Shown here piece after piece: positions 7,927 to 22,621 of a stretch of 64,000 nt of DNA. Position numbers and translations under genes: made by a program. The notes beneath the pieces were generated by a model. The model ran no database searches. It saw only the letters and a list, made by a program, of their open reading frames with translations, and was not told where the DNA came from. Source of the stretch: Acidobacteriota bacterium (GTDB lineage: Bacteria > Acidobacteriota > UBA6911). The stretch lies in the NCBI GenBank assembly GCA_012729555.1, contig JAAYCX010000010.1:62001-126000 (forward strand). The letters run 5' to 3'. The first letter of the stretch is position 1, and each line of letters begins with the position of its first letter.

Positions 7927-8025
7927 ATGGACAGGCACCCTTTGAACGAATCATGGACATCCACCATTTGAACCGATAGGTGGATGTCCATGATTTTTTG
8001 AACCGATAGGTGGATGTCCATGATT
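7927..8025 (+). repeat. REP-like palindromic repeat cluster, possible amtB terminator
   Basis: A perfect 17-base inverted repeat occupies 7949-7965 and 7979-7995 (13-base loop), followed by a run of T. A 28-base unit, TTGAACCGATAGG plus TGGATGTCCATGATT overlapping it, is present twice in tandem (7968-7995 and 7998-8025). An imperfect relative beginning TGGACAGGCACCC lies at 7929. The same GGACAGGCACC core recurs near 29956 and 29995, so this appears to be a dispersed family. In function it would end amtB transcription just before the activator gene. Confidence 0.7.
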
Positions 8026-8042
8026 CTGCTAACATGGGGGCC

Positions 8043-9848
8043 ATGACGGGAGAATACCGACCCACCACCGGTATCGCCGAGGTGGACAGGGCGATCGGCG
8101 GCGTGATCAGCGGCGACAACCTGGTCTGGGAGATCGATTCCGGCGTCGCCGGGGATCATTTCATCTCCAATTTCGTCGAAGCCTGCGAGGAGGGGGGGGT
8201 TCCCGTCGTCTATGTCAGTTTCAACCGCTCCCCCCAGACGATCGCCTCCAAATATGCCAAATTGATGACCTCGGGGCGATTCTCGCTCATCGATTGCTTT
8301 TCTTCCGGGAAGGGCAACTCCGACGAGGTGTTTCTGAAGTTTTTTGACGATCCCGCCCGGGATGCCGTGCATGCCCCGGTTCACATCGCCGATCCTGCGG
8401 ATCCCGCGCGCCTGGAACAGGCGATCGTCGAAGTCGGCACCCGCGGGGGGCAGTCGGCCAACTACATTTTCGATTCCCTCACGGGAATGCTCGATCTGTG
8501 GGGGGACGAAAACCGGGTAGTCCGCCTTTTCGGGCACCTCTGCCCGCGGCTCTACGACCTGAACACCCTCGCCTGCTGGCTCATTGAAAAGGAAGCCCAT
8601 ACCGAGGCGTTTCTCGCCAAGGTGCGCCACATCACCCAGGTGGTCATGGAGGTGTCGCTGCTCAACGGTCAGCGGGCGCTCACGGTCCGCAAGGCCGCCG
8701 GCCGCAACGCCGCGATCGGCATCCCCCAGCCCCTGGATTTCGACGAGAGCCGTTTCATCCAGGACGGCGAATTCCGGGGAGGGCGCCACGTCGACCGGAT
8801 GACGCGGCGCGGGGAGGCGCTGCGGCGTACTTACCGCGTCGACAGTATCGTGGGCGGGAGCGCGGCGATCCGGCGGCTGTTGGGACTGGCGGCGACCGCG
8901 GCTCGTTCGCGTTCCTCGGTTCTGATTACGGGCGAGACCGGAACCGGCAAGGAGCTGATCGCCAACGTGGTCCACTACAACAGCGACCGCGCCGCCGGCC
9001 CCCTGGTCAAGGTCAACTGCGGCGCGCTTCCCGAAAGCCTCCTGGAATCGGAGCTTTTCGGACACGTGAAGGGGGCCTTTACCGGAGCCGTCAGGGATTA
9101 CGAGGGGCGCTTCCGCGCGGCCGAAGGGGGGACCCTCTTCCTCGACGAGGTCAGCGAGATGAGCCCGCGGCTGCAGGTGAAGCTGCTGCGCGTGCTGCAG
9201 GAGCGGCAGCTGGAACCGGTCGGTTCCAGCCGGACCCTGGCGGTAGATGTCCGCATCGTCGCGGCCACCGGGATGGATCTGCGCGCCGAGATCAAGGCGG
9301 GGCGCTTCCGACAGGACCTGTTCTATCGACTGAACGTGATTCCCGTCCGCATTCCCCCGCTGCGCGAGCGGCGCGAGGATATCCCGCTGCTTGCGGACCA
9401 CTTTCTCGAAAAGTACAACCGCGAGGCCGGCCGGCGGGTCGGCCATATACCCAGAGAGGTCCTGGCCGTCATGCTCGCCCATGCCTGGCCGGGGAATGTC
9501 CGCGAACTGGAGAACTGTATCGAGCGGGCGGTGGTCATGAGCCCGGATGACACGATATCCCTGGACCTGCTCCCCGAGGAGATCAGGGAGAGCGTGCCCC
9601 CGGGTTCCGGGGGCGAGGCGGAATCCTCCCCGGATCCCCGATCCGAATTGCGCCGGGCGGTTCTGCAGTTCCTCGCCTCCCGCAAGGATCCCGCCGGTGT
9701 GCGTGCCCTCCTGCTGGAAACGGTTGAAGAGGCTTTGCTTCGGCGCCTGGTGGAATCGAATCTCTACAGCCAGCGTGAACTGGCCCAGATGCTTGACCTC
9801 AGCCGCGTAACGCTCCGAAAAAAACTGGCTCACTACGGGATCTCCTGA
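8043..9848 (+). CDS. Sigma-54-dependent transcriptional activator with degenerate KaiC/RecA-like N-terminal domain
   Basis: Enhancer-binding protein of about 601 residues. Residues 1-240 resemble a KaiC/RecA-type domain ([34 protein letters not shown]), but the Walker A position reads [11 protein letters not shown] and lacks the GKT/S, so nucleotide hydrolysis there is unlikely. The central AAA+ domain is complete: Walker A GETGTGKE (297-304), GAFTGA loop (344-349, contacts sigma-54), and Walker [10 protein letters not shown]. The C-terminus carries a Fis-type helix-turn-helix ([20 protein letters not shown]). The ATG at 8043 is preferred; an ATG at 8034 and a GTG at 8010 are alternatives, the latter inside the repeat. 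It lies between two sigma-54 promoters that it probably serves. The N-terminal domain presumably senses a ligand or partner, but which one is unknown. Confidence 0.9.
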
Positions 9849-10138: not shown

Positions 10139-10471
10139 ATGACGGATAAGCTTGCCTATCGAGGGCTTTGCGAGACCTGCGAGCATGACGCCACGTGCAT
10201 GCTGCACAGAAGCTCTCGGCTGGAAATCATTCAGTGCGAGGAGTTTTCCACCCGCCCGGCCGCAAGCCGCCCCCGTTCCCCCCTTGAGACCGGCGCGATC
10301 GAAGACCCGATGGACGCCTTCCGGATGGGGCTGTGCGCCAACTGTCTGAATGTGGCCGGCTGCGGATTTCCGAATGCGTGCAAAGGAGTCCTGCAGTGTG
10401 AGGAATACATCCTGGATGAGGCCGGAGCGGTCCCGCAGGCGAAGGCGGAAAATTCCAGGTCGGCGGCCTAG
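10139..10471 (+). CDS. Small protein with two tandem Cys4 motifs
   Basis: A 110-residue soluble protein and the first gene of the sigma-54-driven operon, with GAAAGGA before the ATG. It consists of two copies of the pattern C-x2-C-x5-C-x11/12-C-E-E-[F/Y]: first CETCEHDATC and later IIQCEEF, second CANCLNVAGC and later VLQCEEY, joined by a Pro/Arg/Ser-rich linker. Each unit could bind one zinc or iron-sulfur centre. I know similar small Cys proteins only as uncharacterised neighbours of redox genes in anaerobes. A scaffold, electron-carrier or redox-sensor role for the complex encoded downstream is inference from position. Confidence 0.8.
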   Translation: MTDKLAYRGLCETCEHDATCMLHRSSRLEIIQCEEFSTRPAASRPRSPLETGAIEDPMDAFRMGLCANCLNVAGCGFPNACKGVLQCEEYILDEAGAVPQAKAENSRSAA

Positions 10472-10493
10472 GTTCTGGATGGAGGAGGGGCGG

Positions 10494-11063
10494 TTGTCAA
10501 CCACCCGGGAAACCGATCGAATTGCATTGTTTGTGTGCGCCAATTGCGCGCGTCCCGGCAGGAAACCCACATCGGCTGAACGGGCTCGGCCGGTGATCCC
10601 GGGTTTCAACCTGCCGGGACGCGTGGATCGGGTGGTCCTCCCCTGCGCCGGGAGGCTCCAGCCCGAGCATGTCCTGAAGGCGTTCGAAGCCGGGTGCCGC
10701 GTCGTCAGCGTGGTGGCCTGCGAAGAACAGAACTGCCATCACGCCGAGGGAAGCCGCCGCTGCAGCCTGCGTGTGCAGTACGTCCGGTCGCTGCTGGAGG
10801 AAATCGGGTTGGGGGAGGGGCGGCTGGTCCTGGCGCATCTCCCCGGGTCGGCCCTGGAGGACCTGAAGGTGTCCGCAGGGAGGCCGGCGGCGGGGATATC
10901 CCCGGACGGCCCGGCCGCCCGCCTCGAGGGGATCCGGAAGGCAATCCTCGAGGCGCTCGGCGACTCCCCCCCGAATCCGCTCGCCGAGCCGGAGCCCGGC
11001 AGCGGGGCCGGCGCCGCGCGGGCGGAATCGCTCCCCCCCGGCGGGGGGGTGCGGCATGAATAG
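10494..11063 (+). CDS. MvhD/FlpD-like hydrogenase iron-sulfur subunit family protein (first copy)
   Basis: Protein of about 189 residues resembling MvhD, the small [2Fe-2S] subunit that passes electrons to HdrA in methanogens and in Hdr-linked complexes. It has the N-terminal CANC motif after a beta strand (ALFVCANCARPG), a second cysteine in VVLPCAGRLQPEHVLKAFEAG, and CEEQNCHH ... RRC, followed by YVRSLLEEIGLGEGRL, typical of the family. The C-terminal tail (about 45 residues) is low complexity. The TTG at 10494 is chosen because GGAGGAGGGG ends 3 bases before it; an in-frame ATG at 10479 overlaps that ribosome site. It overlaps the MetF-like gene by 8 bases, so the two are translationally coupled. 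Confidence 0.82.
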   Translation: MSTTRETDRIALFVCANCARPGRKPTSAERARPVIPGFNLPGRVDRVVLPCAGRLQPEHVLKAFEAGCRVVSVVACEEQNCHHAEGSRRCSLRVQYVRSLLEEIGLGEGRLVLAHLPGSALEDLKVSAGRPAAGISPDGPAARLEGIRKAILEALGDSPPNPLAEPEPGSGAGAARAESLPPGGGVRHE

Positions 11064-11970
11064 GTTCGGCAGGGCGCTCCTTTCGGGCCGGACGCTGGTG
11101 ACGGCCGAGTGCCTCCCTCCCCGGGGAGCCGACGCGGACGTCATGAGGGAGCTTTCCGCCTCGCTCCCCCGGGAACTGGACGGGATCGTGGTGCCGGACA
11201 ATCCCGACCGGGTGCGCGCATCGGCCCTTTCCTGCGGCGCCCTGCTGGCCAGGGAAAGGGGGAGGAGCGTCATCATGGCGATGACGTCGCGCGACCGGAA
11301 CCGCATCGGGCTGGTAAGCGACGCGCTCGGCGCCGCCGCCCTGGATATCGAGGCCATCCTGTGCCTGGGAGGGCGGCACCAGTCCTCGGGAATCGCGCCC
11401 GAGGCCGCTGCGGCCCGCGACCTCGACTCGATCCAGCTGACGCAGGCCCTGAAGAAAATGGCCCTCTACGGTTCCAGCATGAACGGCCGGAAACTGGAGC
11501 CCGAAATCAAGCTGCAGATCGGGGCGACGGCGAACCCCTACCTGCGCCCCCTGGACCTGAACCTGCTTCGGGTCAGGATGAAGGTCCACATCGGCGCGGA
11601 CTTCCTCTTTACCCACGCCGTCTTCGACCTGGACGGCTTCGGGCAATGGCTGGACGCCGTGCGCTCCCTGGGCCTGGACAAGCGCACCGCCATCATCGCG
11701 AGCGTGCTGCCGCTCGGAAGCGTGGAGCGGGCGCGCGAGCTCGACCGGAGCGGGATCTACGGCCCGGTCGGGGAAGGGGTGATCGCAAGGCTCGCCCGTT
11801 CGGCCGACCCCGTCAGGGAAGGAATCCTCATCGCCGCCGAGGTGGCGAAGAAACTGAAGGAACTCCCCGGCATCCGGGGGATCCACATCCTCTCGGGGGG
11901 AGCGGAGTCCCGGGCGGCCGAGGTCATGCGGCAGGCTGGGCTCCCGATGGTCCCGAGCCCCGCGAACTGA
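11056..11970 (+). CDS. Methylenetetrahydrofolate reductase-like protein (MetF family)
   Basis: A 304-residue flavin TIM-barrel protein of the MetF family, which reduces 5,10-methylene-THF to 5-methyl-THF in one-carbon metabolism. Seen in the sequence: LVTAECLPPRG with the conserved Glu (E18), MAMTSRDRNRIGL, AARDLDSIQLTQALKKM, and ADFLFTHAVFDLDGF near residue 195. The segment ILCLGGRH (102-109) carries Arg107 where MetF proteins usually have the folate-protonating Asp (Asp120 in E. coli; alignment from memory), so activity on the usual substrate is uncertain. In acetogens MetF pairs with MetV and Hdr/MvhD proteins, and all of these are encoded in this operon. Confidence 0.82.
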   Translation: MNRFGRALLSGRTLVTAECLPPRGADADVMRELSASLPRELDGIVVPDNPDRVRASALSCGALLARERGRSVIMAMTSRDRNRIGLVSDALGAAALDIEAILCLGGRHQSSGIAPEAAAARDLDSIQLTQALKKMALYGSSMNGRKLEPEIKLQIGATANPYLRPLDLNLLRVRMKVHIGADFLFTHAVFDLDGFGQWLDAVRSLGLDKRTAIIASVLPLGSVERARELDRSGIYGPVGEGVIARLARSADPVREGILIAAEVAKKLKELPGIRGIHILSGGAESRAAEVMRQAGLPMVPSPAN

Positions 11971-11981
11971 AGAGAGCCGGA

Positions 11982-13436
11982 ATGCCCGATCGCTACCACA
12001 TCCATACTGTTCCGACCCCGGGAAGGTTTTACCGGACCGGCAAGTTCGGCGGCATCGACTGGCGCGAGGACTGCTCGCGTTGCGCCAACTGCGTCAAGCT
12101 CCGCTGCTGCTTCGACGTGTACGCCCACGAGGGGGTCCATAACCGGGATCCGCTGGCGCCCATCGGGACCCTGAACGAATGCAAGGCGTGTTTCTCCTGC
12201 GTCCAGGGGTGTACGAAAGGGCTGCTCAGCCTCTCGGTCAACCCGGAATTCCTGGAGATGGGAGACGATTACTGGACGCCCGATATCCTCCTCTCCACCT
12301 GGAACCAGGCCGATTCCGGCAAGATCCCGGTTTCCGGAGCGGGATATCGCGGGCGGTTTCACGGTCCCGGGTTCGATTCCATCTGGACCGACATGTCCGA
12401 AATCGTCCGCCCGACGCGCGACGGCATCCACGGCCGGGAGTATATCTCGACCTCGGTAGACATCGGCCCGAAGCCGATGCGCCTCTGCTTCTCCCCCGAG
12501 GGCAGGCTGCTTTCGCCGCCCGCCGAGCTGCTGGAGCTGCAGCTCCCCGCCGTCCTGGACCTCGATCCCCGGATCGATTCGAATTCGCGTCTGGCGCGCG
12601 CGCGCGCCATGGCCGCCAGGGATCTCAGGACCGTCGCGATGGTCGCCGCCGCGGAAGCGGCGGGACTGAGTCCCGATCTCCGGCCCTTCGTGGTCCCCGT
12701 CTTCCGTGGCGGGGACGCGCCGGAGCTCGGGGCGATCGAAGCCGTGGACAGGATGGCGGAACTCGTCGACGGGCCGGGCCTCATAGCCCTGGCCGAGGCG
12801 GTCCGCGCGGCGACGCCCGGGGCGATTCTCTCGATCCGCCTCCGGCTGGCTCCCGGAACCGGCGATCGGGTCATGGCCCTTTTCCGCGCGGGGTTCCGGG
12901 TATTCCATCTCTCGGCGGACCTGCACGGGCGCATGCAGGGGGAGGACGGTTCCGCCGGTCCGCATATCAAGGACGCGCTCCGCGTCATCCATGGGGACCT
13001 GGTCGGCGCGGGGGTGCGCGACGAGGTCACCCTGATCGTTTCCGGGGGGATCGCGCTGGCCGAACATATGGCCAAATCGATCCTGTGCGGCGCGGATCTC
13101 GTGGGCGTGGATACGGCGCTCTCCGTTGCCCTCGGCTGCCGGGTCTGCCGCGGAAACGGTCCGCTCCAGGGGGAGGCGGGGGGGGACGGTGCCGCTTCGT
13201 CCTGCAGCCGGTGCCCGGCGGGGATCGACGGGGCGGATGCCGCCTACGCCGCCCGGCGGATGGTCAACCTGATGGGCGCCTGGCACAGCCAGCTGATCGA
13301 GGTGCTGGGGGCCATGGGGATCCGGGAGGTGCGCCGCCTGCGGGGGGAGATGGGGCGCGCCATCTTCATGGAGGAGATTGAAAAGGAGGCCTTCGGCGAC
13401 CTGCTGCGCGTCACCGGAGGGCAGGGCGTCGCATGA
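11982..13436 (+). CDS. Divergent glutamate-synthase FMN-domain paralogue with N-terminal 2x[4Fe-4S] ferredoxin module
   Basis: A 484-residue protein. Residues 31-43 (CSRCANC ... CC) and 67-77 (CKACFSCVQGC) form two ferredoxin-like cysteine sets. The C-terminal third matches the end of the GltS FMN barrel (DEVTLIVSGGIALAEHMAKS, CGADLVGVDTALSVALGC, then a Cys-rich stretch and MVNLMGAWHSQLIEVLGAMG). The middle, however, lacks the NSFSCTGEGG and GSYGGTGA loops that its neighbour has for FMN and substrate. It shares the WTPDILLSTWNQA block with that neighbour, so the two are paralogues. It is probably a non-catalytic, electron-transferring partner. The ATG at 11982 lies 11 bases after the metF-like stop. 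Confidence 0.75.
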   Translation: MPDRYHIHTVPTPGRFYRTGKFGGIDWREDCSRCANCVKLRCCFDVYAHEGVHNRDPLAPIGTLNECKACFSCVQGCTKGLLSLSVNPEFLEMGDDYWTPDILLSTWNQADSGKIPVSGAGYRGRFHGPGFDSIWTDMSEIVRPTRDGIHGREYISTSVDIGPKPMRLCFSPEGRLLSPPAELLELQLPAVLDLDPRIDSNSRLARARAMAARDLRTVAMVAAAEAAGLSPDLRPFVVPVFRGGDAPELGAIEAVDRMAELVDGPGLIALAEAVRAATPGAILSIRLRLAPGTGDRVMALFRAGFRVFHLSADLHGRMQGEDGSAGPHIKDALRVIHGDLVGAGVRDEVTLIVSGGIALAEHMAKSILCGADLVGVDTALSVALGCRVCRGNGPLQGEAGGDGAASSCSRCPAGIDGADAAYAARRMVNLMGAWHSQLIEVLGAMGIREVRRLRGEMGRAIFMEEIEKEAFGDLLRVTGGQGVA

Positions 13437-13678: not shown

Positions 13679-13751
13679 CCGGGGGCCCCGGCATCCCGCG
13701 CGTGCGGATCGTCGGGGCCCTTCAAGAGTAATGTTTAGCACAGGTGAGGGT

Positions 13752-15344
13752 ATGACGACAACCATTGCCGAAGCCAGGATACCCCGCGAGCCGTATCCCG
13801 CGGAATCTCCCGCCGGTTATCCCCGGGAGAAGGTCTCCCGCGAGGTGCGTCCCGCCCCCGAGCGCTACCGCAACGCCATCGGCAAATACCGGATCACGCG
13901 CTCGGCGGGCTGCGACTCCTGCGGGCTGTGCGTGGAAGCCTGTGCCCGCGGGGTTCACATCAAGCCGGAGGCGTATGCCCTGGTCTGGCGGCCGGAGGAC
14001 CACCGCTGCATCGGGCCCTCCTGTGCGGAGAGCGGGGATTCGTGCATCAGCCGCTGCCCGAGGCAGGCGCTGTCGCTTCGGCTGAACCCTGACGTGGAGT
14101 GCCTCGGAGATCCGCGCTGGACCGCCGACCTGATCCTTTCCACCTGGCACCAGGCGGAAACCGGCCACCGCCCCCCGGCCCACCTCGAGTACCGCCACGG
14201 CGACTCGGGCGGGGGATTCGACCGGATCCGCTTCCGCTTCGAGGTGCCGGGGGCCGCCCCGGGCGGATCCCTCCGTGCGGCCGAAGGGAACTCCGACGGC
14301 GCGGCGCCGGCGGGCCGCCGGATCGATCTCGGCCTGGACCTGAACCGCCGCGGCGACGGCCGCCCGCAGGTCCACGTCGACATCCCCGTCTACGGCGGGG
14401 GGATGAGCTTCGGATCGGTGAGCATCCACACGATCCTGGCCAAGGCGCGCGCGGCCGCGGCCTGGAACAGCTTCAGCTGCACCGGCGAGGGGGGGTACCC
14501 GGACCGCCTCCACCCCTACGACGACCACATGATCACCCAGGTGGCGACGGGTCTTTTCGGCGTGCGCGAGGAGACCATCCAGAGGGTGCGCATAGTGGAG
14601 TTCAAGTACGCCCAGGGGGCCAAGCCGGGGCTGGGAGGCCACCTCCTCGGGGACAAGAACACCCCGGCCGTGGCCCGCATGCGCGGTGCGGTCCCCGGAA
14701 ACGCCCTGTTCAGCCCGTTTCCGTTTCACAGTGTCTACAGCGTGGAGGACCACAAGAAGCACCTGGACTGGATCAAGGAGATGAATCCCTGCTGCCTGGT
14801 CAGCGTCAAGGTGTCCACCCCCACCGACGTGGACATGGTGGCGGTGGGGAGCTACTATGCCGGGGCCCACATCATCCATCTCGACGGCAGCTACGGCGGG
14901 ACCGGCGCCGCGCCCGACATCGCCAAGAAGAACATCGCCATGCCGATCGAGTACGCGATCCCCAAGGTCCACAGGTTCCTCGTCGATGAGGGGATCCGGG
15001 AGAAGGTGACCCTCATCGCCTCCGGCGGTATCCGCACGGCCCACGACTGCCTGAAGGCCATCGCCCTGGGGGCCGACGGGGTGGTGATCGGAACCGCCGA
15101 AATGGTGGCCCTCGGCTGTGTCCGCTGCGCCTGCTGCGAAAGCGGGCGCGGGTGCCCGCGCGGGATCGCCCCCACCGACCCGGAACTCGTCGGGCTGGTG
15201 GATCCCGACTGGGCGACGCAGAGGCTCGTCAACCTCCAGAACGCATGGCACGAAGAGATGCTGGCCGTCCTGGGACGGCTGGGCATGGCCTCGATCCGCG
15301 ACCTGCGCGGACGGAGCGACCTCCTCTGCCTTCTCTCGGATTGA
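13752..15344 (+). CDS. Glutamate synthase central/FMN domain protein with ferredoxin module (archaeal-type GltB)
   Basis: A 530-residue catalytic subunit candidate for glutamate synthase (2-oxoglutarate plus ammonia to glutamate on FMN). The N-terminus has C54, C57, C60 and C64 and a second set at C86, C91, C98 and C102. The FMN barrel is complete: VYGGGMSFGSVS, NSFSCTGEGGYPDRL, LVSVKVSTPTDVDMVAVG, DGSYGGTGAAPDIAKKN, TLIASGGIRTAHD, ADGVVIGTAEMVALGC, followed by the Cys-rich CVRCACCESGRGCPRGI that matches the 3Fe-4S site. It lacks amidotransferase and GXGXG domains, which are supplied by the next gene. The ATG at 13752 follows AGGTGAGGG; an upstream in-frame ATG at 13731 is less likely. Confidence 0.9.
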   Translation: MTTTIAEARIPREPYPAESPAGYPREKVSREVRPAPERYRNAIGKYRITRSAGCDSCGLCVEACARGVHIKPEAYALVWRPEDHRCIGPSCAESGDSCISRCPRQALSLRLNPDVECLGDPRWTADLILSTWHQAETGHRPPAHLEYRHGDSGGGFDRIRFRFEVPGAAPGGSLRAAEGNSDGAAPAGRRIDLGLDLNRRGDGRPQVHVDIPVYGGGMSFGSVSIHTILAKARAAAAWNSFSCTGEGGYPDRLHPYDDHMITQVATGLFGVREETIQRVRIVEFKYAQGAKPGLGGHLLGDKNTPAVARMRGAVPGNALFSPFPFHSVYSVEDHKKHLDWIKEMNPCCLVSVKVSTPTDVDMVAVGSYYAGAHIIHLDGSYGGTGAAPDIAKKNIAMPIEYAIPKVHRFLVDEGIREKVTLIASGGIRTAHDCLKAIALGADGVVIGTAEMVALGCVRCACCESGRGCPRGIAPTDPELVGLVDPDWATQRLVNLQNAWHEEMLAVLGRLGMASIRDLRGRSDLLCLLSD

Positions 15345-15394
15345 CGGCGCGGCCGGTCCGCGCCGGGAAAACGGATTATGGGAAGGAAACGTCA

Positions 15395-18004
15395 GTGAAA
15401 GATACAGCCCGACAGCTGCTGGCCACACGGTCGAGGATCTACCGCGGCCCCGGGTCCCCCCGTCCGGTCAAATCGGCCGAAGAGGGGGGATGCGGTGTGA
15501 CCGGTTTCGCCTGCACCGAGCCGCTGGCGGGACGCTTCATCTACGAGCCTTCAGCCCAGATGCAGAACCGGGGGAACGGCAAGGGAGGGGGAATCGCCGC
15601 CGTCGGCCTGACCCCCGAACAGATGGGGGTCCCGCGTGCGGTGCTGGACGAAGCCTACCTGCTGCAGCTCGCGCTCATCGATCCCGGCTGCCACGCGGAC
15701 CTCGAACGGCGCTTCGTCCTGCCGAATTTCGACGTCCTCCTCTCCGTCCGGCAGCCGCACCTGGACGATTACCGCGACGTCCCGGGACTGGAGGTGCGCC
15801 CGCCGGACGTGCACCGCTACGTCGTGCGCCCGAAACCCCTCCTGCTCGCGGAGTTCGCGCGGCAGAACGGCCTGGAAGCGCTGGCACCGCGCGACCTCGA
15901 GGACGAGTTCGTCTGGCGCAACTCCTACCGCATCAACGATGAATACTATGCCTCGCTCGGGGAGAAGCGCGCCTTCGTGCTGTCGCACGGCAGGGACCTG
16001 CTGGTTTTCAAGCTGGTCGGATACGCCGAGCAGAATGTCGAGTATTACCGGCTCCGGGATTTCAAGGCCCACGCGTGGATCGCACACCAGCGCTATCCCA
16101 CGAAAGGGCGGGTATGGCACCCCGGCGGCGCGCACCCGTTCGTGGGGGTCAACGAGGCCCTGGTCCACAACGGCGACTTCGCCAATTACTGGTCCGTCAG
16201 CGAATACCTGCGCCAGCGCAACATCCGCCAGCAGTTTCTGACCGACACCGAAGTATCGGCGCAGCTCTTCGATCTCTGGGACCGCGTCTACAAGTACCCG
16301 CTGGAATACATCATCGAGGCCCTGGCGCCCACCTCGGAGCTCGACTTCGACGAGCTGCCGCCCGAGAAGCAGGCCATCTACCGGCAGATCCAGGCGGCGC
16401 ACATCCATGCATCGCCCGACGGCCCCTGGTTTTTCATCATCGCCCGCAGCCAGCCGGATCGGAAGAGGGTCCAGCTGCTCGGCATCACCGACACCGCGAT
16501 GCTCCGGCCTCAGGTGTTCGCCCTCTCGGACAACGATGACGTCCAGATCGGCCTGATCTGCTCGGAGAAGCAGGCGATCGACGCCACACTGCGGAGCCTT
16601 GCCCGGGAGGACGCGCGCTTCTGCCCGGTGGCGGACAGGTACTGGAACGCGCGGGGCGGGTCGAGCACCGACGGCGGCGCCTTCATCTTCTCGGTCGATT
16701 CGGACGGCGACGGGGGGCGGCGGCTCACCTGCGCCGACAAATTCGGCCGGCCGGTCGAACTCCGCACCGGCCGGGTGCGGTGTGACCTCCTTACCCCGGA
16801 AGAGGACTCCCGGCCCGCCCCCGAAGCCCTGCGGGAACTGGTGTCCCGGTACCTGCAGAAGGGGGACGTCGAGGCGCTCTGGTCCCACGTCCTGGACCTC
16901 CCCACCTGGTCGCCCGGGGACCTCAAGCGCTTCTGCGGCCTCGTCGTCGAAGGGGCGGATACGGCCAAGGCGCGCATGACGGCCGTCCGGCTCCTCACCC
17001 TCCTGCGGGACCGGCGGTTCGACACGGGTGACAAGCGCCGCGCCGGCGTGATCCAGGTCGCGGACCGGTCGCTGGAGGCGCTGTTCGATTCCGCCCCCCT
17101 TTTCGGCCGTCCGGCCAGCCGCTACTGGCGCCGCGTCGACCGGGCGACGCGCCACCTCCTTGCCCCCCCGAGGGCGGGGGAGGAGGTCCTGGTCGTCGAC
17201 AGTGAAGGTTTCCCCCCCGAGGGGGACGATTGCGACGCCCTCCTGCTGCGCGAGGCCTACCAGGCCGGCTGGAGGCGCTTTGTCGTCTACCGCCTGCGCG
17301 GCCAGCGCTTTCACGGCGCCGGTTTCGGGCCGGGCACGGACGGGGTGAGGATCGACCTGTACGGGTCCTCCGGCGACTACACCTCGAGCGGGATGGACGG
17401 GATGGAGATCCATATTCACGGCAACGCCCAGGACCAGGTGGCGCAGATCGCCAAGGGGGGGCGGCTGGTGATCCACGGCGACGTGGGGCAGACCTTCATG
17501 TACGGCGCCAAGGGGGGGGAGGTGTTCGTGCTCGGCAACGCCGCCGGGAGGCCCCTGATCAACGCCGTGGGGAGCCCCCGCGTGGTCATCAACGGGACCT
17601 GCCTCGATTTCCTGGCCGAGTCTTTCATGGCGGGGGACCCCCTCACCGGCGGGGGCTTCGTCGTTCTCAACGGCATGGAGTTCGACGCCCGCGCGCGTCT
17701 CGTCCCGCAAAGGACCCCTTATCCCGGGGGCAACCTCTTTTCGCTCGCCAGCGGCGGCGCCATCTACATCCGGGACCCCGGACGCCGGATCATCGAACGG
17801 CAGCTCAACGGGGGGGGGATCGCACCGATCGACGACCGCGACTGGAGTCTGATCCTGCCCTTCCTGGAGGAAAACGAGGCGCTTTTCGGAGTTCGCGTGC
17901 GGGACCTGCTGACGGTGGACGGCCGGGAGCGGGCCCCGCGGGACGTGTACCGCAAGGTCAGCGCCGTGCGGCTTTCGGTCCTGGCCGGATCGAAAGCCAG
18001 GTGA
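15395..18004 (+). CDS. Class II glutamine amidotransferase - GXGXG (glutamate synthase alpha C-terminal) fusion
   Basis: An 869-residue protein that supplies the missing parts of the glutamate synthase. The N-terminal class II amidotransferase domain has EEGGCGVTGF with the nucleophile candidate Cys33, AHQRYPTKGRVWHP, and FVGVNEALVHNGDFANYW. The C-terminal GXGXG beta-helix has GMEIHIHGNAQDQV, LVIHGDVGQTFMYGAKGG and VFVLGNAAGRPLINAVG. The middle 300 residues link the two. Class II enzymes need an N-terminal Cys, so a 32-residue propeptide would have to be removed if this is an active glutaminase. GTG at 15395 follows GGAAGGA. The predicted role is to release ammonia from glutamine and channel it to the FMN subunit encoded upstream. 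Confidence 0.88.
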   Translation: MKDTARQLLATRSRIYRGPGSPRPVKSAEEGGCGVTGFACTEPLAGRFIYEPSAQMQNRGNGKGGGIAAVGLTPEQMGVPRAVLDEAYLLQLALIDPGCHADLERRFVLPNFDVLLSVRQPHLDDYRDVPGLEVRPPDVHRYVVRPKPLLLAEFARQNGLEALAPRDLEDEFVWRNSYRINDEYYASLGEKRAFVLSHGRDLLVFKLVGYAEQNVEYYRLRDFKAHAWIAHQRYPTKGRVWHPGGAHPFVGVNEALVHNGDFANYWSVSEYLRQRNIRQQFLTDTEVSAQLFDLWDRVYKYPLEYIIEALAPTSELDFDELPPEKQAIYRQIQAAHIHASPDGPWFFIIARSQPDRKRVQLLGITDTAMLRPQVFALSDNDDVQIGLICSEKQAIDATLRSLAREDARFCPVADRYWNARGGSSTDGGAFIFSVDSDGDGGRRLTCADKFGRPVELRTGRVRCDLLTPEEDSRPAPEALRELVSRYLQKGDVEALWSHVLDLPTWSPGDLKRFCGLVVEGADTAKARMTAVRLLTLLRDRRFDTGDKRRAGVIQVADRSLEALFDSAPLFGRPASRYWRRVDRATRHLLAPPRAGEEVLVVDSEGFPPEGDDCDALLLREAYQAGWRRFVVYRLRGQRFHGAGFGPGTDGVRIDLYGSSGDYTSSGMDGMEIHIHGNAQDQVAQIAKGGRLVIHGDVGQTFMYGAKGGEVFVLGNAAGRPLINAVGSPRVVINGTCLDFLAESFMAGDPLTGGGFVVLNGMEFDARARLVPQRTPYPGGNLFSLASGGAIYIRDPGRRIIERQLNGGGIAPIDDRDWSLILPFLEENEALFGVRVRDLLTVDGRERAPRDVYRKVSAVRLSVLAGSKAR

Positions 18005-18033: not shown

Positions 18034-21000
18034 ATGATGGGGAGCGGTCGCGCGCGGCCCGGGGGCGTGGGGGCGGTGCTGGTCTGGGGCTCGGGCGGCG
18101 CCGGGATCCAGGCGGCGCTCGACCTGGCCGAAAGCGGTTTCCGGACGGTTCTGGTCGAAGCGGGCGCCGCCATCGGCGGCCGCGCGGCCCGGTCCGACGA
18201 CACGCTGTCGGGGGGCGATTGCGCCATGTGCCTTCTTTCCCCCAGGCTGGCGGAATGCGCCCGGAACCGGAACATCGAGATCCTCACCCTCGCCGACGTC
18301 CTGGAGGTTTCGGGGGAGCCGGGGCGCTTCCGGGTCAGGATCCGCCGGAACCCCCGCTGCGTGGACTCGGAGAAATGCGACGGTTGCGGCAACTGCGCCG
18401 CCGTCTGCCCCGTGACCCTTCCCGCGGCGCCGGGGGAGGAGGCGCTCAAGGCGATTTGGCGCCCGTGGCCTCAGGCGATCCCCAACGTCTTTTCGATCTC
18501 CCGGGTCGAGGGTGCCGCCCCCTGCAGGGCCGCCTGCCCGGCGGGGGTCAATGTCCCGGGATTCCTCTCGCTCTTCGGGGCCGGAAGGCTCGAGGCGGCG
18601 CACGCGCTGCTGCTCGACCGGTGCCCCTTTCCGGGCACGAGCGGCCGCATCTGTCGGCGCCCCTGTGAAAAAGCATGCCGCCGCGGCGGGGGGGACGGCG
18701 CGGTGACCGTCGGCGACCTGGAGCGATCGGTGGCCGACGCCGTGGCCTCCGCGGAGAGGGCACCGTCGCCGGCGGCGCCTTCGCCGGTGGGGGAAGGGGC
18801 GGCCGGGACCCGGGCGCGGGTGGCCGTCATCGGGGGCGGGCCGGCGGGCCTGGTCGCCGCCCGGGACCTTGCGCTCGCCGGCTACCGGGTGACCCTGTTC
18901 GAGGCGCAGCCCCTTCTGGGCGGGATGCTGCGTTACGGGGTCCCCCCGTTCCGGTTGCCGCGGGAGGTTCTCGACCGGGAAATCGGCGCCCTCCTCCCGC
19001 CGGGGCTCGAGGTGCGTCCCTCCACCCGGATCGACAAACCCGCCGGGCTGCTGGCCGCGCGGGGCGGGGCCTTCGGCGCCGTCTTCCTGGCCTGCGGCGC
19101 CTGGGGCGGGCGCAGGATGGGTATTCCGGGCGAGGGGGCGGAGGGGGTGTGGCAGGCGGTGGACTACCTGCGGGCTTCGAATTCGGGATCCCCGGCCGCC
19201 ATCGGTCCCGGCGTGCTGGTGATCGGCGCTTCCGACCTGGCCCTGGACGCGGCCCGCACCGCCCTGCGGGCGCCGGGGGTGCGGACCGTCACCCTGGCGT
19301 GCCTGCACGGGCGGGGGGAGGTTCCGGTCGACGGCGGGAGGCTTGCGCTGGCGGCAGGGGAAGGGGTGAGGGTGGAGTACGGGCTCGGCCCGACGCGGGT
19401 GAACACCCTTGAGGGAAGGGTGGTCTCGGTCTCCTTCCGGGCCTGCACCAGCGTCTTCGACGAGCATGGGAGTTACGACCCGCTTTACGACGACGCCGCG
19501 ACGCGCACCCTCGGCGCCGATACCGTCATCCTGGCTTCCGGGCGCGGGGTGGAGGCCGCGGGATACGCTCTCGAGCGGCGTCCCGGGGGGCGCCTGCTGG
19601 CGGACCCGGTGACGGGCGCCACCCCTGTCCAGGGGATCTTCGCCGGGGGGGACGCGGTCCTGGGACCCGCTTCGCTGCCGGAAGCGATCGCCCAGGGGAG
19701 GCGCGCGGCCGAGAGCATGGACGCCTGGCTGAGGCGGAACGCCCCGATCCGGGAGGCCGACGCCGTGGGGCTTGCCGGAGCGGGCCAGCGGCATCCCCTT
19801 CCGATGGCGCCGGGCCCCGCGCCGGCCGGCCCGCGGGCCGGGAGCCGGGAGGCGGAGGAGGCGCGCCGTTGTTTGAACTGCGGATCCTGCAGCGAATGCG
19901 GGCTTTGCATCGCCGCCTGTTCGGCGGGGGCGATCGACCTTTTCCAGGCGCCGTCCGAATCGGAAATCGAGGTGGGGGGTGTGATCGTCGCCCCTGAAGA
20001 AACCGAAGCGCCGGCGTGGAAGGAACTGGCCGCGCGGATCGGCCTGGACCCCGACATCCCCGGACTCCCGGCCGAACCCGTGCGGACCCGGCTGCCGGGA
20101 GTCTACGCGGCCGTCGGCCGGGGGAGGGAGATCGCCGCGGCCGTCACCCGGGGCTCCGCGGCCGCCGCCTGCGCCATGGAGCAGCTGGCTTCCGTGCGGG
20201 GCACCCTGGCCCGGCCGCGCTCCTACCCATGGGAGCGGGACGTGACCGACGAGGAGGCGCGCATCGGGGTCTTTGTCTGCCGGTGCGGGCACCAGGTCGC
20301 CCGGGCGGTCGATGTGGCCGAAGTGTGCCGGTCCGTTTCCGCCCTCGAGGGGGTGCGGTGCGTCGAGGCGCTCGAATATTCCTGTTCCGACTCCGGCCTG
20401 CGGAGGATCAAGCGCAGGATCGGCGAGCACCGCCTGAACCGGGTGGTGGTGGCTTCCTGCTCCTCCCGGACCTACGAGGCCCTGTTCCAGGAGGTTCTCC
20501 GCGAGAGCGGGCTGAACCGGTGCCTCCTGGCGACGGCCAACATCCGGGAAGAATGCGCCTGGGTCCACGGGGGGGATGGCGGAGCCACCCGGAAGGCGGT
20601 CGACCTGGTGACGATGGCGGCGGCCCGGGCCCGGCATCTGCACCCCCTGCCGCCGGTGGGACTTCCGGTGACGGCCTCCGCCCTGGTGCTCGGGGGAGGG
20701 CGCTCCGGGATGACGGCGGCCCTGAGCCTCGCGGACCAGGGATTCGGCGTCCACCTCGTGGAGCGGTCGGGCGCCCTGGGAGGGGGGGCGCGACGCCCCG
20801 GCCCGGGAGAGGGGGCCGCCGGCGACCGGGTGAGCGGGCTGGTCGACCGGGTGACGGCGCACCCCGGGATCACCCTCCACCTCGACTCGGAGCTCGCGGC
20901 GATAGCGGGGCAGGCGGGGGATTTCACCTGCCGCCTGACCGTTTCCGGCTGGGGGAGGGTGACGCTCGCGGCCGGGGCGGTGATCGTGGCCACGGGTCCG

Positions 21001-21468
21001 GGGGGGGAGAACGGGGCCCTTGCCGCGAAGCTCCGCGTGGCGCTCGGGGAAGACGGCGGTTTCCGGCCGGCGCACCCGGTGCTGCGGCCGGTGGACCTGG
21101 TCAACGAGGGACAGTTTTTCTGCACCGCGCCGCACCCGTCCCCGGTCCGGGAGAGGGTGCTCCGGGCGCGGGCCGCGGCGTCGCGCGCGGCCACGATCCT
21201 GTCGAAGCCGCAGCTGGAAATCGCCGGGCATGCGGCCTCGGTGAATCCCGTCTTCTGCGTCGCCTGCGGCACGTGTGTCCAGCTCTGCCCCTACGGCGCA
21301 CCCGTTATCGGCGAAGGGCGCAAGGCCGCCGTCCAGGGGGTCAAATGCGCCGGGTGCGGCAGTTGCGTGGCCTGCTGCCCCCGGCGCGCCATCACCCTGC
21401 GGCGGGAGGAGAGCGGGACGGTGACGGCGATGCTCGACCAGTTGCTGGCCGCGGGAGGGGGGTATTGA
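18034..21468 (+). CDS. HdrA-type flavoprotein with GltD (glutamate synthase small subunit) module nested inside
   Basis: A 1144-residue iron-sulfur flavoprotein. Order: HdrA-like FAD domain (VLVWGSGGAGIQAALDLAES, about 13-32) with the first ferredoxin set C115-C125; GltD-type N-terminal Cys domain (APCRAACPAGVNVPGF, about 162); GltD FAD domain (VAVIGGGPAGLVAARDLALA, about 262) and pyridine-nucleotide domain (VLVIGASDLALDAARTAL, about 395, altered from GGGD); ferredoxin set from C613 (CLNCGSCSECGLCIAAC); HdrA core again (IGVFVCRCG near 744, VVASCSSRTYEALF near 806, ALVLGGGRSGMTAALSLADQ near 883); two C-terminal clusters (CVACGTCVQLCP, CAGCGSCVACCP). GGAGG at 18024 supports the ATG at 18034. 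It probably moves electrons between NAD(P)H, ferredoxin and the GltS and MetFV partners; whether it bifurcates is untested. Its stop overlaps the next start. Confidence 0.88.
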   Translation: MMGSGRARPGGVGAVLVWGSGGAGIQAALDLAESGFRTVLVEAGAAIGGRAARSDDTLSGGDCAMCLLSPRLAECARNRNIEILTLADVLEVSGEPGRFRVRIRRNPRCVDSEKCDGCGNCAAVCPVTLPAAPGEEALKAIWRPWPQAIPNVFSISRVEGAAPCRAACPAGVNVPGFLSLFGAGRLEAAHALLLDRCPFPGTSGRICRRPCEKACRRGGGDGAVTVGDLERSVADAVASAERAPSPAAPSPVGEGAAGTRARVAVIGGGPAGLVAARDLALAGYRVTLFEAQPLLGGMLRYGVPPFRLPREVLDREIGALLPPGLEVRPSTRIDKPAGLLAARGGAFGAVFLACGAWGGRRMGIPGEGAEGVWQAVDYLRASNSGSPAAIGPGVLVIGASDLALDAARTALRAPGVRTVTLACLHGRGEVPVDGGRLALAAGEGVRVEYGLGPTRVNTLEGRVVSVSFRACTSVFDEHGSYDPLYDDAATRTLGADTVILASGRGVEAAGYALERRPGGRLLADPVTGATPVQGIFAGGDAVLGPASLPEAIAQGRRAAESMDAWLRRNAPIREADAVGLAGAGQRHPLPMAPGPAPAGPRAGSREAEEARRCLNCGSCSECGLCIAACSAGAIDLFQAPSESEIEVGGVIVAPEETEAPAWKELAARIGLDPDIPGLPAEPVRTRLPGVYAAVGRGREIAAAVTRGSAAAACAMEQLASVRGTLARPRSYPWERDVTDEEARIGVFVCRCGHQVARAVDVAEVCRSVSALEGVRCVEALEYSCSDSGLRRIKRRIGEHRLNRVVVASCSSRTYEALFQEVLRESGLNRCLLATANIREECAWVHGGDGGATRKAVDLVTMAAARARHLHPLPPVGLPVTASALVLGGGRSGMTAALSLADQGFGVHLVERSGALGGGARRPGPGEGAAGDRVSGLVDRVTAHPGITLHLDSELAAIAGQAGDFTCRLTVSGWGRVTLAAGAVIVATGPGGENGALAAKLRVALGEDGGFRPAHPVLRPVDLVNEGQFFCTAPHPSPVRERVLRARAAASRAATILSKPQLEIAGHAASVNPVFCVACGTCVQLCPYGAPVIGEGRKAAVQGVKCAGCGSCVACCPRRAITLRREESGTVTAMLDQLLAAGGGY

Positions 21469-21956
21469 TGCCGCCGGACCGGCTGGAGCGTCGAGACGGA
21501 GAAACCCGGACGGTGCAGCCGCCAGGCTGGGAGCCGGAGATCCTCGCCTTCTGCTGCAGTTACTGCGCCTCGGCCGCGGCCGCGGAGGCGGGAGCCGTCC
21601 GGCTGCGGTACCCGGCGGGCACCCGCATCCTGTCCACCCCCTGTACCGGCGCGATCGAAATGGAGCATCTGCTCGAGGCTTTCGAGAAGGGGGCCGACGG
21701 GGTCCTGGTCATCGGGTGTCCCGAGGGGGGGTGCCATTTCGTGGAAGGAAACCGGCGGGCGCTCAGGCGGCTGGAAAGGGTCCGGGAGCTGCTGGACGAG
21801 ATCGGCCTGGGCGGCGGGCGGCTGCGGAGGGCCCAACTCTCCGATTCCATGGCCTCGGCGTTCGCGGGGCAGATGCGGGAGATCACCGAAACAGTCCGGG
21901 CGATGGGGCCGAATCCCCTGAAGCCCGCAAGAAAAGAAAGCGCAGGGAGATCATGA
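21468..21956 (+). CDS. MvhD/FlpD-like iron-sulfur subunit family protein (second copy)
   Basis: A 162-residue member of the MvhD-like family, paralogous to the protein encoded at 10494-11063. It shows EILAFCCSYCASAAAAEAG, then ILSTPCTGAIEMEHLLEAFEKG, VLVIGCPEGGCHFVEGN and RVRELLDEIGLGGGRL. The cysteines CSYC, C(T), C(P) and C(H) are those expected to hold the [2Fe-2S] cluster. The start ATG shares its first base with the upstream stop (TGATG), and its own stop overlaps the metV-like start (ATGA), so the HdrA-GltD, MvhD and MetV proteins are translationally coupled and likely form one complex. In known systems MvhD contacts HdrA. Confidence 0.87.
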   Translation: MPPDRLERRDGETRTVQPPGWEPEILAFCCSYCASAAAAEAGAVRLRYPAGTRILSTPCTGAIEMEHLLEAFEKGADGVLVIGCPEGGCHFVEGNRRALRRLERVRELLDEIGLGGGRLRRAQLSDSMASAFAGQMREITETVRAMGPNPLKPARKESAGRS

Positions 21957-22621
21957 TCGTCGCTTCACCCAAATCGATAACGGAGCTCAAAACCATCCTC
22001 GCCGGCCACCGGAAGGTCCTCTTCGTGGGATGCGGCACCTGCGTGACGGTGTGCCTGGCCGGGGGGGAACGGGAGGTCGGCATCCTCGCCTACGCGATGC
22101 GCATGGCGCGCCGCCTCGACAAGAACCCGGTCGAGATCTCCCAGGTCACCATCGAGCGCCAGTGCGACAACGAGTTCCTGAAGGACCTGGCCGAACCGGC
22201 ATCCGGGGTGGAGGCCATCGTCTCCTTCGGTTGCGGCGCCGGGGTCCAGGCCATCGCGGAGCGGTTTCCGGACAAGCCGGTCTACGCCGGGCTCGACACC
22301 CAGTTCCTCGGGATCCTGGAGGGTCAGGCGGTCTGGACCGAGAAGTGCCTCGGGTGCGGCAGCTGCATGCTGGCGCATTTCGGCGGCATCTGCCCCATCA
22401 CCCGGTGCGCCAAGCGGCTGCTCAACGGCCCCTGCGGCGGTTCGCTCGAGGACCGCTGCGAGGTCGACCCGGAAAAGCCGTGCGCCTGGCAGCTGATTTA
22501 TAAAAGGCTCAAGGCCATCGGCCAGCTCGACCGCCTCGAGGAGATCGTTCCCCCCAAGGACTGGAGCACCGCCTGGTACGGCGGCGCGCGCAGGGTCGTG
22601 CGCCGCGACCACCAGGTCTAG
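21953..22621 (+). CDS. MetV-like protein (methylenetetrahydrofolate reductase C-terminal domain family)
   Basis: A 222-residue Cys-rich protein of the family that partners MetF in acetogens (MetV) and links it to an electron-donating complex. It has VLFVGCGTCVTVCLAGGERE at residues 20-40, VSFGCGAGVQAIAERFPDKP in the middle, then KCLGCGSCMLAHFGGICP and CAKRLLNGPCGGSLEDRC, the zinc/iron-sulfur ligand block of the family, ending CAWQLIYKRLKAIGQL. It begins within the preceding gene (ATGA overlap). It is the last gene of the sigma-54 operon; its stop overlaps the stop of a convergent gene. The presence of MetV together with a MetF-like gene supports a real MetFV-type unit. Confidence 0.87.
   Translation: MIVASPKSITELKTILAGHRKVLFVGCGTCVTVCLAGGEREVGILAYAMRMARRLDKNPVEISQVTIERQCDNEFLKDLAEPASGVEAIVSFGCGAGVQAIAERFPDKPVYAGLDTQFLGILEGQAVWTEKCLGCGSCMLAHFGGICPITRCAKRLLNGPCGGSLEDRCEVDPEKPCAWQLIYKRLKAIGQLDRLEEIVPPKDWSTAWYGGARRVVRRDHQV

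Follow-up and report, generated by a model that had tools for sequence, protein, structure and literature searches.

What can an HdrA protein do that carries a GltD module within itself, is encoded among genes for glutamate-synthase-like proteins and has no hdrB or hdrC gene in its operon? The question is raised by an open reading frame in a 64,000-nucleotide stretch of DNA from an Acidobacteriota bacterium (assembly GCA_012729555.1, contig JAAYCX010000010.1, positions 62,001 to 126,000; hereafter the window). The encoded fusion protein, which we will call P0001, has been compared with structures in the PDB, with homologues and with other genomes of the same genus (G001 and G003–G009; the window genome is G000, and loci fetched outside it carry L-numbers). 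The explanation favoured here, with moderate confidence, is that P0001 is a reduced form of the HdrA described from Moorella, which would now act as a non-bifurcating, one-track electron relay and would be the remnant of a larger Hdr/glutamate-synthase complex.

Domain architecture of the fusion protein

With unit boundaries set by phmmer against PDB HdrA, P0001 matches HdrA in four pieces. Residues 15–157 match HdrA 150–296 and contain the HdrA motif for flavin adenine dinucleotide (FAD) and the first cluster of the inserted ferredoxin, while residues 615–654 match HdrA 289–327 and supply the second ferredoxin cluster and the return strand. Residues 734–892 match HdrA 2–163, and residues ~984–1135 match the HdrA C-terminus. 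The E values of 6e-92 to PDB HdrA and 7e-77 to the PDB NfnA-type chain 9bov_A exclude chance. Because residues 734–892 match the start of HdrA, P0001 is counted as two HdrA units, of which the first alone holds GltD, and a single HdrA interrupted by GltD has been rejected. The latter had been the original prediction, made from the letters of the window alone, which described a single redox hub with the HdrA start in residues 1–130 and a resumption at ~740. The FAD motif and the first ferredoxin cluster are indeed found in that first segment, but the segment is the FAD lobe of HdrA and not its start; unit 1 resumes at ~610–725 and a second HdrA unit begins at ~735. The HdrA N-terminal domain (HA1) is absent from unit 1 and is present in unit 2 only.

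Of the two cluster motifs in the ferredoxin inserted into unit 1, the first precedes the GltD module and the second follows it. The module matches PF14691 (Fer4_20, 6.6e-13) and PF07992 (the FAD lobe, 5.4e-30); its cluster domain is shortened at the N-terminus (profile positions 30–110 of 113), and its FAD motifs are intact. The match at residues 160–568 agrees with the earlier assignment of residues ~160–600 to GltD with its cysteine domain and nucleotide-binding regions. The claim that GltD is nested inside HdrA, not fused end to end, is likewise borne out by the same joints in G004 and by the order of the homologous loci described below. The inserted ferredoxin, split around GltD, and the C-terminal ferredoxin pair after unit 2 are both present, the latter being the two further clusters expected at the C-terminal end.

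The AlphaFold2 model of the whole protein has a mean predicted local distance difference test (pLDDT) score of 83.7 and a predicted template modelling (pTM) score of 0.77. In this model, residues 160–627 align with NfnA (9bov_A) with Z = 43.7 at 2.7 Å over 445 residues; the scores against 8oh5_C (Stn) and GltD (6s6t_E) are Z = 42.5 and Z = 34.1. Residues 740–1140 align with HdrA (5odc_A, HdrA 2–652) with Z = 30.0 at 3.1 Å over 401 residues. A model of residues 1–735 (pLDDT 83.2, pTM 0.80) was also compared with the PDB; the GltD module fills the match lists, and no row spans both HdrA pieces of unit 1. The predicted closure of HdrA unit 1 around GltD draws its support from strand order and model confidence.

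Missing subdomains and the nucleotide loop

In both units of P0001, the stretch corresponding to HdrA ~328–500 has been removed in frame. Each gap opens at the VIVAP/VIVATG strand and closes at the far hinge of the NAD-like subdomain, and the length of the deleted core has been measured in P0002, a paralogue encoded on the same contig (Table 1). The missing stretch carries the HA2 cysteines of the TrxR-like domain, HA2 being the cluster of that domain, and the glutamate/lysine (E/K) pair. In the alignment, neither unit has the HA2 cysteines, and E356 and K409, which lie near the flavin, have gone from both with the deleted stretch. Two complete TrxR-like domains, a trait of Moorella-type HdrA and HdrL, are not found in P0001, both NAD-like subdomains being absent, and the second FAD motifs are eroded in both HdrA units.

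A profile scan of genome contigs with a seven-row alignment was used to collect homologues; the best 80 loci of 583 relatives were fetched, and the resulting alignment has 94 rows. The nested order is present in 70 of these rows, from 56 of the 80 loci. The unit 1 subdomain is missing in just four of the 70 nested rows (G000, G004, G008, and G005), all from this operon and this genus.

In the literature, the E/K pair is a marker that separates bifurcating from non-bifurcating flavins (PMC9430772, PMC12054007). The unit 1 columns were placed on the Moorella numbering E696/K750 (M. stamsii, L050), while the unit 2 columns are one off. At the published unit 1 positions, both residues are kept in 80 of the 88 aligned GltD-bearing rows, the eight exceptions being the four genus copies just named, L058 (K to E), and three rows with D for E. 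The unit 2 pair is less well kept: of the 88 rows, 45 have the E and 62 the K, and each position has 16 gaps, which include proteins with one HdrA unit.

The nucleotide loop of the GltD NAD(P)H lobe is also altered. P0001 reads GASDLA and does not have the GxGxxA/G loop of the GltD/NfnB lobe, and its aligned sequence has no counterpart of the arginine pair (YRR) found in NADP-type GltD. The loop is GASD in P0001, GESD in G004, GGSD in G001 and G008, and GGDD in G005; the operons outside the genus have GGGS (L049), GGGN (L051 and L070), and GGGD (L092). The second conserved glycine of the GxGxxA loop is thus replaced in five of five genus copies and in none of four outside operons, which supports the earlier suggestion that GASD in place of GGGD may alter nucleotide use. 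On this alignment, the alteration is a trait of the genus rather than of P0001 alone. The loops of L104 and L106 also deviate (GVGH and GAAH).

Graded reduction within the genus

Neither hdrB nor hdrC is found in the window operon, and hdrBC is absent from the operon in all eight genus copies. The G001 copy of HdrA is full; the first subdomain is lost in G008, and both are lost in G000 and G004. The G004 copy is 90% identical to P0001, has the same shape and joints and retains the C-terminal ferredoxin. In G005, the first subdomain is gone together with the N-terminal domain and the C-terminal ferredoxin, and flpD is missing next door. In G003, G007, and G009, hdrA and flpD are wholly gone and metV directly follows the class II glutaminase gene (GAT). 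In a tree of five core proteins, the genus copies come together and G003 stands apart from G007 and G009; because G003 does not pair with these two, at least two separate whole losses of hdrA are suggested. A single HdrB gene, that of the paralogue operon, is detected in each of G000, G004, and G005, while G001 has four and G008 three. The copy with both HA2 sites (G001) therefore belongs to a genome with spare HdrB genes, a correlation drawn from few genomes.

A fuller operon is found elsewhere, with the order flpD-metF-gltB2-gltB-GAT/GXGXG-hdrC-hdrB-hdrA-flpD-metV. Placement of hdrC and hdrB between GAT and hdrA is observed in four of the 80 loci, and contig ends may hide more. These are L049 (Armatimonadota), L051 (Chloroflexi), L070 (Dehalococcoidia, contig-cut), and L092 (a metagenome-assembled genome of Desulfosudis oleivorans, with rotated order). 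The P0001-type HdrA may have descended vertically, as a whole, from these outside operons: in a tree of the second half of the protein it groups with the four loci (0.993), but in a tree of the first half it forms a long branch elsewhere with weak support.

Omega of the operon genes was estimated from one genome pair, G000/G004, with bootstrap ranges. The values are 0.36 (0.28–0.46) for the P0001 gene, 0.48 (0.26–0.96) for FlpD, 0.135 for GAT, 0.208 for GltB, and 0.10 for MetV. For the paralogue, omega is 0.20 in the same pair and 0.13 in G000/G006. The domains of P0001 differ: the first FAD lobe, the ferredoxin parts, and the flavin part of GltD have an omega of ~0.25–0.30, the cluster domain of GltD has 0.58, and the 71-codon remnant of the unit 1 FAD lobe has 1.3. 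Between G000 and G005, identity is 49% for P0001 vs 77% for the paralogue. All 27 ligand-type cysteines that are invariant in the alignment are also kept in G004. By these measures, the P0001 gene is fast-evolving and under relaxed but real constraint.

Proposed role and alternative explanations

The P0001 gene belongs to an operon that has hdrBC in its fuller form elsewhere and has lost it in this genus. Published electron routes place the cluster of the TrxR domain between the HdrA flavin and HdrBC (PMC9012536). Once HdrBC is lost, HA2 would no longer be needed, and both losses are seen in the operon; the HA2-bearing NAD-like subdomain has been cut from both HdrA units at the hinges of the fold itself. 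Without HA2, the E/K pair, and a normal nucleotide loop, the HdrA units would be unable to bifurcate or to feed HdrBC. The remainder would have as many as three flavin lobes, and its [4Fe-4S] clusters would number about six, a figure obtained by subtracting two HA2 clusters from the published eight. The originally predicted path between two flavins is not supported for this copy, given the number of flavin lobes and the loss of the HA2 subdomain and E/K pair from both units. Electrons could be relayed along one track that joins the GltD flavin to FlpD/MetV, which would dock at the C-terminal clusters, and the relay would probably serve the adjacent glutamate-synthase-like core, which is a guess from gene order. 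The HdrA-GltD module would be dispensable and on its way to loss.

Several observations weigh against this account. The inner nodes of the genus tree are weakly supported (40, 55, and 61 at three nodes). G001 keeps both subdomains without adjacent hdrBC, though its three further hdrB genes could serve in trans. The glutamate-synthase core can do without the module, since G003, G007, and G009 have the core and no HdrA-GltD. Omega rests on two genomes, and the synonymous divergence (dS) between them is 0.157 at the P0001 gene, far below the 0.706 of the paralogue, so that the locus may have been exchanged between species. The relay and its partners are themselves inferred from sequence.

The main rival is a decaying relic, free of selection since the loss of HdrBC and due to vanish as in the three sister genomes. 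The complete loss of hdrA in those genomes agrees with decay, as do the omega values of the P0001 and FlpD genes against 0.10–0.21 in the core genes, the value above 1 on the unit 1 FAD remnant, and the eroded second FAD motifs of both HdrA units. We consider a relic rather unlikely, given that the frame is free of stops in two genomes, that every ligand cysteine is kept, and that omega, well below 1 overall, is ~0.25–0.28 in three stretches: the first FAD/ferredoxin part, the flavin part of GltD, and the C-terminal ferredoxin. It is more doubtful still that P0001 remains a bifurcating enzyme whose bifurcating flavin sits in GltD, on the pattern of NfnB/StnC, and not in HdrA. GltD and the following ferredoxin do align best with subunits of the bifurcating NfnABC and Stn complexes, and the FAD motifs of GltD are intact; against this stand the GASD loop, the absent arginine pair, and the operon proteins, among which no NfnA/StnA-like partner was recognised. 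The genome is a draft of 98 contigs, and the missing subdomains or the fusion itself could in principle be assembly errors. Identical joints in the separately assembled G004, the related single excision in G008, and the recurrence of the nested order in the fetched loci, including those around an in-frame TGA, make this extremely improbable, and an assembly chimera has been rejected.

A wider proposal, which is quite possible though short of probable, is that the full operon of L049, L051, L070, and L092 encodes an undescribed Hdr/glutamate-synthase machine, of which the genus holds a natural step-by-step deletion series. In such a machine, a Moorella-type HdrA with HdrBC, FlpD, MetV, and the MetF lacking its Asp would couple bifurcation to glutamine-dependent amination. 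If true, the series (full, one subdomain lost, both lost, module lost) would show which parts of HdrA form the HdrBC exit; the routing from HdrA to HdrBC and ferredoxin has so far been read from few methanogen structures. The loss of HdrBC accompanies in-frame removal of the HA2/E-K subdomain, which leaves the flavin lobes, GltD, and the ferredoxin clusters in place, and the division of labour inside HdrA thus becomes testable by comparing close relatives. Neither the double excision nor an operon joining Hdr with glutamate-synthase-like and MetF/MetV proteins was found described in the freely accessible literature searched, among it PMC12054007, PMC9430772, PMC9012536, PMC5736913, PMC6085437, PMC2702500, and PMC7325909.

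Comparison with known systems

The nested HdrA-GltD-HdrA fusion is not new, since it has been published for Moorella HdrA (PMC9430772), HdrL (PMC2702500), and type III HdrA (PMC12054007); such fusions were named HdrL in 2009 (PMC2702500). Large iron–sulfur flavoproteins of this sort occur in acetogens and sulfate reducers. In the description of Moorella HdrA, GltD interrupts a TrxR-like domain, both TrxR-like domains have E and K, and the protein has a single NAD(P)H site, three FAD, and eight [4Fe-4S] clusters (PMC9430772). Like the Moorella thermoacetica protein (MetVF-HdrBCA-MvhD), P0001 has GltD inside the TrxR-like domain and then a second HdrA unit, which is without an inserted ferredoxin and has a C-terminal one, and MvhD/FlpD and MetV adjoin. 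Unlike it, P0001 has lost both NAD-like subdomains with the HA2 sites and E/K pairs, hdrBC is gone, and glutamate-synthase-like genes are present. The paralogue P0002 (~1,500 residues, 42% identical to P0001 over residues 11–654) has the same order with both TrxR-like domains complete. Its neighbours are hdrC, hdrB, flpD, metV, and metF, and its layout is that of Moorella in PMC9430772.

HdrL is likewise a large Hdr/glutamate-synthase fusion, with an NADH site and with mvhD following it, but two of the three HdrL are selenoproteins and the excerpt does not mention missing TrxR subdomains (PMC2702500). In type III HdrA of methane-metabolising archaea, GltD is also inserted beside the inserted ferredoxin domain; type III differs in having E356/K409 in nine of nine sequences, whereas P0001 has neither residue in either unit, and in being closest to type I, with one TrxR domain, against the two HdrA units of P0001 (PMC12054007). 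NfnA/StnC of NfnABC and StnABC (9bov, 9n5u, and 8oh5) share the order of GltD then ferredoxin domain and are the best structural match to residues 160–627, but no HdrA-type match was found for those chains in the structure comparison and the nucleotide loop of P0001 is altered. Bacterial GltD (6s6s/6s6t) shares the fold, the FAD motifs, and a GltB-like core encoded nearby; it differs from the P0001 module, which has the cut cluster domain and the GASD loop and is nested in HdrA.

In 16 further loci of the 80, the nested order is built around an in-frame TGA, and the remaining eight are partial or not resolved. The TGA sits at NDCAM/NDCSM-TGA, the Cys197-type site, and probably encodes selenocysteine, as would be expected of selenoproteins; HdrL1 and HdrL3 contain selenocysteine (PMC2702500). 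The 16 loci are L044, L046, L052, L083, L084, L099, L102, L104, L106, L108, L109, L111, L112, L113, L115, and L116.

Genomic context

The P0001 gene is preceded by flpD, metF-like, two gltB-like, and glutaminase/GXGXG genes and is followed by flpD and metV (Table 1). The GltB-like genes are adjacent, and P0001 may work with a GltB large subunit.

Table 1. Features of the fusion gene and its operon, in window coordinates
Feature	Position	Strand	Basis
FlpD/MvhD-like protein, first gene of the operon	10350..11063	+	homology, alignment
MetF-like protein without Asp of GDHQ motif	11056..11970	+	homology, alignment
Diverged second GltB-like protein, N-terminal ferredoxin Cys	11967..13436	+	homology
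GltB-like FMN synthase core, N-terminal ferredoxin Cys	13731..15344	+	homology
Class II glutaminase (GAT) + GXGXG protein, start codon not fixed	15383..18004	+	homology, alignment
HdrA-GltD-HdrA fusion, 1,144 residues (P0001)	18034..21468	+	single open frame; 90% identical copy in G004
Unit 1 N-terminal FAD lobe, residues 12–110, with GDCAMC (Cys197-type) motif	18067..18363	+	phmmer to PDB HdrA
Unit 1 inserted ferredoxin, first cluster, residues 111–157; C115, C118, C121, C125	18364..18504	+	HdrA match
Nested GltD module, residues 160–568: cut Fer4_20 cluster domain, FAD lobe, NAD(P)H lobe	18511..19737	+	domain and structure matches
GASD replacing GGGN/GGGD in nucleotide loop, residues 398–401	19225..19236	+	sequence, alignment
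Inserted ferredoxin, second cluster and return strand, residues 610–654; C613, C616, C619, C622, C625, C629	19861..19995	+	HdrA match
Excision joint 1: unit 1 NAD-like/HA2 subdomain missing (~144 residues in paralogue)	19996..20025	+	alignment
Unit 1 FAD-lobe-end remnant, to residue 725	20026..20208	+	alignment, model
Unit 2 N-terminal cluster domain, residues 735–880; C749, C751, C784, C809	20236..20673	+	HdrA match
Unit 2 FAD lobe, residues 881–1062	20674..21219	+	HdrA match, structure alignment
Excision joint 2: unit 2 NAD-like/HA2 subdomain missing (~133 residues in paralogue)	20995..21003	+	alignment
C-terminal two-cluster ferredoxin, residues 1066–1122, 8 Cys	21229..21399	+	domain and HdrA match
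FlpD/MvhD-like protein	21462..21956	+	homology
MetV-like protein (DUF5981)	21953..22621	+	homology

The diverged GltB-like protein has no NCBIfam match and no convincing PDB match, and its gene adjoins GltB and GAT-like genes where the contig shows them. It is found in 15 of 297 genomes of the phylum, eight of them in this genus; in the stretches fetched from the seven others, one of which (L150) is merely 4,971 bases long, no HdrA was recognised near it. In the MetF-like protein, the GDHQ motif reads GRHQ, and its Asp, presumably Asp120 of E. coli MetF, is absent in ten of ten aligned operon copies and present in five of five MetF of MetFV-HdrABC type loci. The protein may thus not be a usual methylenetetrahydrofolate reductase. 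The glutaminase/GXGXG protein has EGGCGV ~37 residues in, conserved in ten of ten copies, a motif that resembles the one around the nucleophile Cys that GltB exposes by propeptide processing.

Participation in a host Wood-Ljungdahl pathway is not supported, with no match to CdhC in G000 and a match in two of nine genus genomes; FTHFS has a match in eight of the nine. A separate GltB/GltD-like pair is encoded elsewhere in G000 (G000:C15:61479-64836), which makes it unlikely that the window operon is the sole source of glutamate synthase in the genome. A sigma-54 activator is encoded upstream of the operon, at 8010–9848.

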